64,000 bases of DNA, taken from the NCBI GenBank assembly GCA_026400735.1, contig JAPLOL010000138.1, positions 1 to 64,000 on the forward strand, written 5' to 3'. Below the pieces are notes generated by a model. It had not been told where the DNA came from. It saw only the letters and a list, made by a program, of their open reading frames with translations, and ran no database searches. Shown piece after piece: positions 10,803 through 28,946 of the stretch. The position numbers were made by a program, and so were the translations under genes. The stretch comes from Alphaproteobacteria bacterium (GTDB lineage Bacteria; Pseudomonadota; Alphaproteobacteria; Caulobacterales; Aquidulcibacteraceae). Position 1 is the first letter of the stretch, and the number at the start of each line of letters is the position of its first letter.

Positions 10803-10892
10803 GGAGAGGTGCTAGAGTGGCTGAATAGGCCGGTCTCGAAAACCGGAGTACGTGCAAGCGTATCGAGGGTTCGAATCCCTCCCTCTCCGCCA
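10803..10892 (+). tRNA. tRNA-Ser (anticodon CGA)
   Basis: A 90-nt cloverleaf: acceptor GGAGAGG pairs with CCTCTCC (10882-10888), discriminator G, and the CCA end is genome-encoded. The anticodon stem CCGGT/ACCGG encloses CTCGAAA, giving anticodon CGA (serine, UCG). The long variable arm is typical of class II tRNAs, and the T arm contains GGTTCGAATCC. Reading frames crossing it on the minus strand are translation artefacts. The 3' side is followed by a gene-poor tract, a common situation beside integration sites, but no second copy of the tRNA end is seen in the window. Confidence 0.97.
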
Positions 10893-27329: not shown

Positions 27330-28109
27330 ATGAGCTGTCATGCGTTCAGCCGGGCGATTGTGCGCACGCCATCGCGATCTGTGATTGATGGTCTGCGCGC
27401 CGTCGACGTCGGCGCTCCAAACTACGACGATGTGCTTGCAGAACATCGCGGCTATGTGCGCGTACTTGAATCGCTTGGCGTGAACGTCGAAACGCTGCCG
27501 GCGCTCGAAGCATTTCCCGATTCTGTTTTCGTTGAAGACACCGCACTTGTCTTCACTGGCGCTGCGATCTTGTTGTGCCCAGGCGCGGCGACGCGGCGCG
27601 GCGAAGCTGCGGAAATGGCAGCAACGCTTGATCGCAATTTCGAGCGCGTGCTGCGCTTGGAAGATGGAACTGCCGAAGGCGGCGATGTGCTCACAACGCC
27701 GCGCACCGTGTTCATCGGCGCGTCCGCCCGCACGAGCGCGATTGGCGCGGCGGCTCTGGTGTCGCTGTTGGCGCAAATCGGGAAGCAGGGCGTCGTGGTC
27801 AACACGCCGCCAGGCGTCCTCCACCTCAAATCCGACTGCTCGCTCCTGGATGACGAGACAATCCTGTGCACGTCCAGGCTAGCCGCGGCGGAGCCGTTCA
27901 CCGGTTTCCGGCTGATCCTTACGCCCGAGGGTGAGGAGGGGGCCGCAAATGCCCTTCGGATCGGAGACTCGGTGCTTTTGTCCGAAGGTTATCCGAGGAC
28001 GGCGGAGCTGCTGGCGCAGGCCGGCTATAATGTAAAGCCGCTGGCCACCGCCGAGATCGCCAAGATTGACGCTGGTCTCTCGTGCATGTCGCTGCGCTGG
28101 CGCACCTAG
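27330..28109 (+). CDS. dimethylarginine dimethylaminohydrolase (DDAH)
   Basis: 259 residues in the guanidine-modifying pentein fold. Substrate-binding DSVFVEDTALV lies near residue 67, GTAEGGDVL near 115, the catalytic His in GVLHLKSDCS near 163, and the catalytic Cys in GLSCMSLRW near the C-terminus. DDAH cleaves methylated arginines to citrulline plus methylamine; the spacing fits DDAH better than the longer arginine deiminases. The gene follows the lipocalin-like gene and precedes rplU on the same strand, but rplU has its own promoter. Confidence 0.9.
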   Translation: MSCHAFSRAIVRTPSRSVIDGLRAVDVGAPNYDDVLAEHRGYVRVLESLGVNVETLPALEAFPDSVFVEDTALVFTGAAILLCPGAATRRGEAAEMAATLDRNFERVLRLEDGTAEGGDVLTTPRTVFIGASARTSAIGAAALVSLLAQIGKQGVVVNTPPGVLHLKSDCSLLDDETILCTSRLAAAEPFTGFRLILTPEGEEGAANALRIGDSVLLSEGYPRTAELLAQAGYNVKPLATAEIAKIDAGLSCMSLRWRT

Positions 28110-28208
28110 GCAGACTCTTGTAAAAATAGGATATTTCGTGCTGGAACGTGGGCCGCCGCCGAGCTGCGCTGCGGCTTCAAAATCCCGCGAAAATGTCCCG
28201 CTTCCGCA

Positions 28209-28237
28209 TTGACGCTTGAGGGGGCTTTCCCTTATAC
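28209..28237 (+). promoter_or_regulatory. sigma70-type promoter of rplU-rpmA
   Basis: TTGACG (28209-28214), a 17-base spacer and TTATAC (28232-28237) make a good promoter. Transcription would start near 28244, leaving a leader of roughly 50 nt to the first or 100 nt to the second rplU start codon. Most of the leader lies inside the 48-bp tandem duplication. Confidence 0.55.
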
Positions 28238-28266
28238 CCCCCGCTCCCCGCCCGGGCGAGCTACGT

Positions 28267-28363
28267 CCGGGCGCACGAATTTTTTGGCGGTTACGATGTT
28301 CGCGGTAATCAAGACCGGGCGCACGAATTTTTTGGCGGTTACGATGTTCGCGGTAATCAAGAC
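28267..28363 (+). repeat. rplU: perfect tandem duplication, period 48 bp, across the rplU start
   Basis: Positions 28267-28315 are repeated without mismatch at 28315-28363. The unit contains the ribosome-binding area, the ATG and the first eight codons of rplU (MFAVIKTG). Because 48 is a multiple of three, the two start codons (28296 and 28344) are in frame with each other. Two initiation sites therefore exist, and an N-terminal 16-residue extension could be made. Confidence 0.95.
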
Positions 28364-28667
28364 GGGCGGCAAGCAATACCGAGTAGCCAAGGACGATGTG
28401 ATCGTCGTTGAGAAGCTCGAAGGCGATGCCGGTTCGAAGGTCACGTTCAGCGATGTGCTGATGTCAGGCGACGGCAAGACCGTGAAGCTCGGCAAGGATC
28501 TCTCGGGCTTCACCGTTACCGGCACGCTCATCGACACGAAAAAGGGCGACAAGGTCACGGTGTTCAAGAAGCGCCGTCGCAACACCTATCGCCGCAAGAT
28601 CGGTCATCGTCAGACTGAATCGCACATCAAGATCACCGCCATCGGCGGCAAGAGCGATAAGGAATAA
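28344..28667 (+). CDS. rplU: 50S ribosomal protein L21
   Basis: 107 residues beginning MFAVIKTGGKQYRVAKDD, the invariant bL21 N-terminus. VEKLEGDAG follows, and the basic end includes KRRRNTYRRKIGHRQ and TESHIKI. It binds 23S rRNA in the large subunit. ATG 28344 is chosen because it matches the family length; the in-frame ATG 28296 in the duplicated leader would prepend MFAVIKTGRTNFLAVT, which no ordinary L21 carries. It is followed nine bases later by rpmA. Confidence 0.97.
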   Translation: MFAVIKTGGKQYRVAKDDVIVVEKLEGDAGSKVTFSDVLMSGDGKTVKLGKDLSGFTVTGTLIDTKKGDKVTVFKKRRRNTYRRKIGHRQTESHIKITAIGGKSDKE

Positions 28668-28676
28668 GAGGACGTC

Positions 28677-28946
28677 ATGGCTCACAAGAAAGCAGGCGGC
28701 TCTTCGCGTAACGGTCGTGACTCGGCCGGTCGTCGTCTTGGCGTGAAGCGCTTTGGCGGCCAGTCGGTCCTCGGCGGCGAGATCCTCGTCCGTCAGCGCG
28801 GCACCAAATTCCACCCAGGTTCCAATGTCGGCCTTGGCCGCGATCACACGCTATTTGCCCTTTGTCATGGCCAGGTAGCGTTCGCGACTAAGCGCGATGG
28901 CCGCACGTACGTGTCGATTATGCCGGCACAGGTAGCGGCGGAATAG
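28677..28946 (+). CDS. rpmA: 50S ribosomal protein L27
   Basis: 89 residues starting [20 protein letters not shown], the standard bL27 N-terminus whose lysine/glycine-rich tail reaches the peptidyl-transferase centre. [20 protein letters not shown] and the RDGRTYVSI region follow. Length and order after rplU are canonical. An intrinsic terminator lies downstream. In many bacteria obg follows; here a GNAT gene follows instead. Confidence 0.98.

Follow-up and report, generated by a model that had tools for sequence, protein, structure and literature searches.

The window analysed here is a 64,000-nucleotide stretch of DNA, bases 1–64000 of a 129,705-base contig, and rplU, rpmA, and the leader and repeat features at the rplU start lie on its + strand. 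The gene rplU (28344–28667) encodes ribosomal protein bL21 with a canonical length of 107 amino acids. It is followed downstream by rpmA (28677–28946), which encodes ribosomal protein bL27 and matches PF01016, and is preceded by an arginine-deiminase-like gene. The L21 sequence scores 112.3 bits with the Ribosomal_L21p profile (PF00829; cut-off 27), where residues 17–116 of the extended form of the protein cover positions 1–99 of the 99-position profile, and this is the sole PF00829 match found in the genome. The protein relatives of this L21 belong to Terricaulis and other Hyphomonadaceae.

The start of rplU is spanned by a perfect 48-bp tandem duplication, as the first-pass annotation had reported. 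Copy 1 (28267–28314) and copy 2 (28315–28362) are identical, and the period of 48 was obtained by an offset comparison, TRF, and a repeat search. At offset 48 the sequence repeats exactly over 49 bases and does not extend leftward; a perfect 48-bp repeat is far beyond chance. The duplicated unit is composed of part of the hairpin 3′ arm, AATTTTTT, GGCGG, ATG, and AATCAAGA, in this order. Copy 1 contains seven bases of the hairpin 3′ arm, a T-run, a weak Shine-Dalgarno sequence, ATG1, and codons 1–6 plus one base; copy 2 has the same content, with ATG2. On the left the unit starts within the 3′ arm of a hairpin conserved in the leader, and on the right it stops just short of a matching CGGGCG in codons 7–9.

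Both units, each equivalent to 16 codons, are in frame with rplU. The two ATGs, at 28296 and 28344, share a common frame, in agreement with the first-pass annotation, and no stop lies between them. The frame is open from ATG1 to ATG2, and the upstream ATG, a putative start, could therefore give an L21 with 16 added N-terminal residues, MFAVIKTGRTNFLAVT (28296–28343), as had been proposed. Among organelle ribosome entries there are L21 chains in which a long N-terminal part precedes the core (for example 6eri, with the core at residues 52–158 of 165), where the deposited sequences may contain parts unseen in the structure.

Promoter-like elements and hairpin of the rplU leader

The putative promoter of rplU is formed by a −35 element, TTGACG (28209–28214), and, 17 nt after it, a −10 element, TTATAC (28232–28237), which is followed by a GC-rich stretch; the position of the transcription start is deduced from these elements. 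In 43 of 55 leaders from the genus and family, TTGAC precedes a TATA motif by 13–26 bases. Folding covered leaders with this pair; the 12 that lack it are L025, L184, L185, and L192–L200, and L030 and L207 come from the same genome. A consensus promoter scan, which strictly requires the −10 hexamer to have A at position 2 and T at position 6, gave no promoter match.

A conserved hairpin, CGCCCGGGCG / CGTCCGGGCG (28249–28273; inverted repeat I5), is positioned in the putative 5′ untranslated region of rplU. The hairpin alignment comprises 26 distinct leaders of 30, after removal of four identical rows; 25 are from the genus, including the window, and one (L030) is from a second genus. The row of L007, in which the stem is misaligned by one base, was kept. 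A narrower motif missed L187, L190, and L206, and these loci were read in the tandem-copy survey described below. In the alignment, 94.7% of cells pair. Nine cells display two-sided changes and the covariation score is 0.146 versus 0.084; neither value was reached in 500 shuffles, and the pairing is also above all 500, although the shuffles take no account of relatedness, which can inflate these three measures. Two pairs have two-sided changes, a value that 262 of the 500 shuffles reach, and 341 of the 500 reach the six further pair types. Slid versions of the hairpin attain a pairing of at most 54% and a score of at most 0.090. The conservation of the hairpin, with some covariation, indicates that the leader probably matters. 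In leaders of other genera that contain the TTGAC–TATA pair, a hairpin of different sequence often follows (z −0.5 to −3.7), and in several other genera of the family its location is similar.

No Rfam match was obtained up to an E value of 5 in 28100–28500. The Firmicutes L21 leader of Rfam is an autogenous ribosomal-protein leader. The hairpin upstream of rplU resembles this leader, and the r-leaders of PMC7247131, in being a structured RNA with some covariation in the leader of a ribosomal-protein gene. It differs from them in being a single simple hairpin lacking an Rfam match, and binding of L21 to it would be conjecture. Words beginning with "L21" are absent from the main text of PMC7247131, where "rplU" occurs once, in the reference list. 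A motif in the 5′ untranslated region of rplU was predicted in Shewanella, according to PMC2659441. Within the collection of papers searched, none combined the rplU leader and L21 with autoregulation. A reading of the hairpin plus T-run as an attenuator or intrinsic terminator was set aside as unsupported: in the window the T-run begins 6 nt past the stem, and its spacing and composition vary in relatives. The terminator scan does not list the hairpin. We regard the leader hairpin as a lead, a putative regulator at most, which may be more useful to follow than the duplication.

In the leaders of five relatives (L009, L012, L014, L015, and L029), the ATG of rplU is separated from CGCTCCC by about 27–58 more bases than usual, and a GGCAGG-like site lies near this ATG. 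The length of the rplU leader is therefore plastic.

The promoter-like elements (28209–28237) and the hairpin (28249–28273) are untouched by the duplication. The two units had been described as complete initiation regions, which is accurate in part. Each of them has a partial hairpin 3′ arm, a T-run, a weak GGCGG, and an ATG, but is devoid of the hairpin 5′ arm and the promoter-like elements. The full native leader is therefore directly upstream of ATG1 only, and ATG2 has no hairpin 5′ arm directly upstream.

Single-copy relatives and the age of the second copy

Tandem copies, either exact over at least 20 bp or approximate with at least 75% identity, were searched for around the L21 start, in a span reaching at most 200 bases upstream and 60 bases downstream of it; the sequence of L025 provides just 60 bases upstream. 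A comparison with orthologous rplU leaders in close relatives, suggested by the first-pass annotation, covered 29 members of the genus and gave a single copy in all 28 whose rplU could be read (the exception is G003). The search was likewise negative for 28 of 30 family genomes outside the genus (G031 and G032 gave no match), for L031, a locus from elsewhere in the order, and for 76 of 80 further database loci (the start motif did not match in L070, L077, L100, and L107); some of the 80 loci are the same contigs as those of the genus, and the counts overlap. Every locus read has exactly one L21 start. The same script recovered the window's own duplication as a positive control. Among viral contigs, 14 stretches matched a pattern, and none of them encodes a relative.

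The 31-base duplication junction, with up to three mismatches allowed, is present in one of 30 genus genomes, the window's own. Since the relatives carry one copy and the junction occurs in its own genome alone, the second copy is derived and private to this assembly. On the sequences compared, the tandem copy is derived from a single-copy ancestor. The simplest reading of the comparison is that the duplication postdates the split from the single-copy relatives, though a precise loss of one copy in a relative would be invisible.

The single-copy unit differs from that of the window at 1 of 48 positions in G006 and at 2 of 48 in G027, the two most similar of 28 congeners. The other 26 congeners have 7–27 ungapped differences in the unit, figures that are inflated by gaps, for example in G029, whose unit has one T fewer. 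The congener G027 is about 79% identical to the window over 46 kb of blastn-aligned window DNA, with unaligned parts left out. For one to two expected differences, the chance of observing none is about 0.14–0.37 (Poisson estimate). The identity of the copies is a weak clock, because the unit differs at only one or two of 48 positions even in G006 and G027. The exact identity had been taken to imply either a very recent event or a mis-assembly. Both readings are live, but the step from identity to recency was too strong, given how little the unit has changed in these two congeners. A very recent origin is possible and is not required.

Slippage or assembly error as possible sources of the duplication

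Short tandem duplications formed by replication slippage between microhomologies are a general class of bacterial mutation. We propose that the 48-bp duplication probably arose by chance through such slippage in one lineage, that of a Terricaulis-like alphaproteobacterium, and that it is in frame, near-neutral, and compatible with the expression of L21 from either ATG. In this scenario, DNA synthesis moved back by one unit by slipping between a short CGGGCG repeat in the hairpin 3′ arm and another in codons 7–9. The left end of the unit reads CCGGGCG, and copy 2 is followed by CGGGCGG (28363–28369), the proposed slippage partner, which repeats the CGGGCG of the hairpin 3′ arm and is also present in G027, G006, and G029. 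The 6-bp CGGGCG is therefore found at both breakpoints, one base out of register, and in register the junction has only a single C of homology. Homology of at least 6 bp to the sequence 48 bp further on, within 1 nt, occurs at 691 of the 63,381 window positions outside the region (1.1%). The presence of CGGGCG at both breakpoints beside a GC-rich hairpin suggests slippage, without proving it.

The duplication shares with slippage-type duplications the direct tandem copy, the perfect identity, the GC-rich hairpin at one breakpoint, and, less clearly, the short repeats at both. It differs from typical cases in that its junction is one base out of the CGGGCG register. In-register slippage between the CGGGCG repeats would give a period of 47, whereas the observed period of 48 needs a one-base offset, which is a counterpoint to slippage. 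It is also distinguished by its position over the start of a ribosomal-protein gene with the frame kept. Within the collection of papers searched, none combined rplU and a duplication at the start codon with an N-terminal extension, and in PMC6941894 the sole "tandem duplication" is in a reference title.

An assembly artefact would give the same sequence if contig ends with a 48-bp overlap had been joined end to end, or if gap filling had repeated the unit, while the organism carries one copy. We consider this unlikely, but it deserves serious weight. The duplication is present in this assembly alone among those examined, its two copies are perfectly identical, and the genome is a draft in 173 contigs totalling 3.58 Mb, with a completeness of 93.5% and a stated contamination of 5. 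Against such an error, the junction contains no Ns, and collinearity with G027 holds to the left and to the right of the repeat. Two blastn blocks adjoin there, with an overlap of 54 bases in G027 and of 7 in the window, about as expected for one versus two copies. The breakpoints fall on the shared CGGGCG, a coincidence met at about 1% of window positions, and the length of the duplication is a multiple of three, for which the chance is one in three. A search for exact tandem duplications with a period of 15–400 and a run of at least 30 bp found no second one in the window and 20 other stretches of the assembly, 323,592 sampled bases in total or about 9% of the genome. The congener G027, of which 400,000 bases were scanned, gave none. 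The absence of Ns, the lack of a second event, and the collinear flanks favour a real duplication over an assembler error, as judged from the assembled sequence.

Predicted consequences for L21 expression

The duplication, if produced by slippage, could have survived through near-neutrality, as it adds 16 codons and no new stop and leaves the promoter-like elements, the hairpin, and the coding sequence intact. L21 would be made from either start: ATG1, in the native leader context, would give a protein longer by 16 residues, and ATG2 the ordinary protein. We infer that the duplication is nearly neutral because the frame is kept, no stop is introduced, the surrounding elements are intact, and either ATG makes L21. 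ATG1 is 54 nt and ATG2 102 nt away from CGCTCCC, and in 29 other leaders the corresponding distance ranges from 51 to 113 nt. Both starts are therefore within the natural range of leader lengths, and ATG1 corresponds in position to the usual start. Shine-Dalgarno pairing is predicted to be the same for both.

A selected regulatory change is a different explanation, in which a second initiation site or an altered hairpin pairing, with one 5′ arm and two 3′ arms, shifts the ratio of L21 to L27, or in which the longer L21 is functional. The first-pass annotation had raised altered L21 dosage and a two-form L21, and both stay hypothetical. The conserved and partly covarying hairpin is in line with it, as are the in-frame ATG1 with its native leader kept and the capacity of the hairpin 5′ side to pair alternatively with codons 7–11 (inverted repeat I2). 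Furthermore, in both ATGs the predicted fold pairs the A and the T more than in G027, with unpaired probabilities of 0.05–0.13 in the window and of 0.81 and 0.53 in G027. This pairing is also a counterpoint to near-neutrality, as it could lower translation, and the folding predictions indicate that an effect on translation may exist. However, the predicted mean openness from −15 to +5 is alike for the two window starts and close to that of G027 (0.41 and 0.42 versus 0.46), the duplicated leader folds no better than its shuffles (z −0.11), and the duplication does not recur in the relatives read. We therefore consider a selected change very unlikely. The duplication probably does little functionally.

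The most elaborate proposal is that the hairpin serves this alphaproteobacterial family as a hitherto undescribed element controlling the L21–L27 operon, and that it has been rewired in the present lineage. Two 3′ arms would vie for one 5′ arm, and the hairpin would set the ratio of short to long L21. We treat it as a long shot. Positions 28243–28254, which comprise the hairpin 5′ side and its flank, are 83% complementary to 28363–28374 in rplU codons 7–11; such pairing would loop out the start codons and may be due to chance.

A slippage duplication at this position matters little in itself, as another short in-frame duplication at a site where the gene product can withstand it. If real, it offers a natural test of whether bL21 in a bacterial ribosome tolerates 16 additional N-terminal residues, and of the choice of the ribosome between two identical start sites.

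Elsewhere in the window, the segment 10894–25744 has no blastn match (E 1e-20) to the 160 kb of G027 compared, which contains about 37 kb in its place. By this comparison the segment is a variable region, and it begins just 3′ of a tRNA gene (10803–10889).
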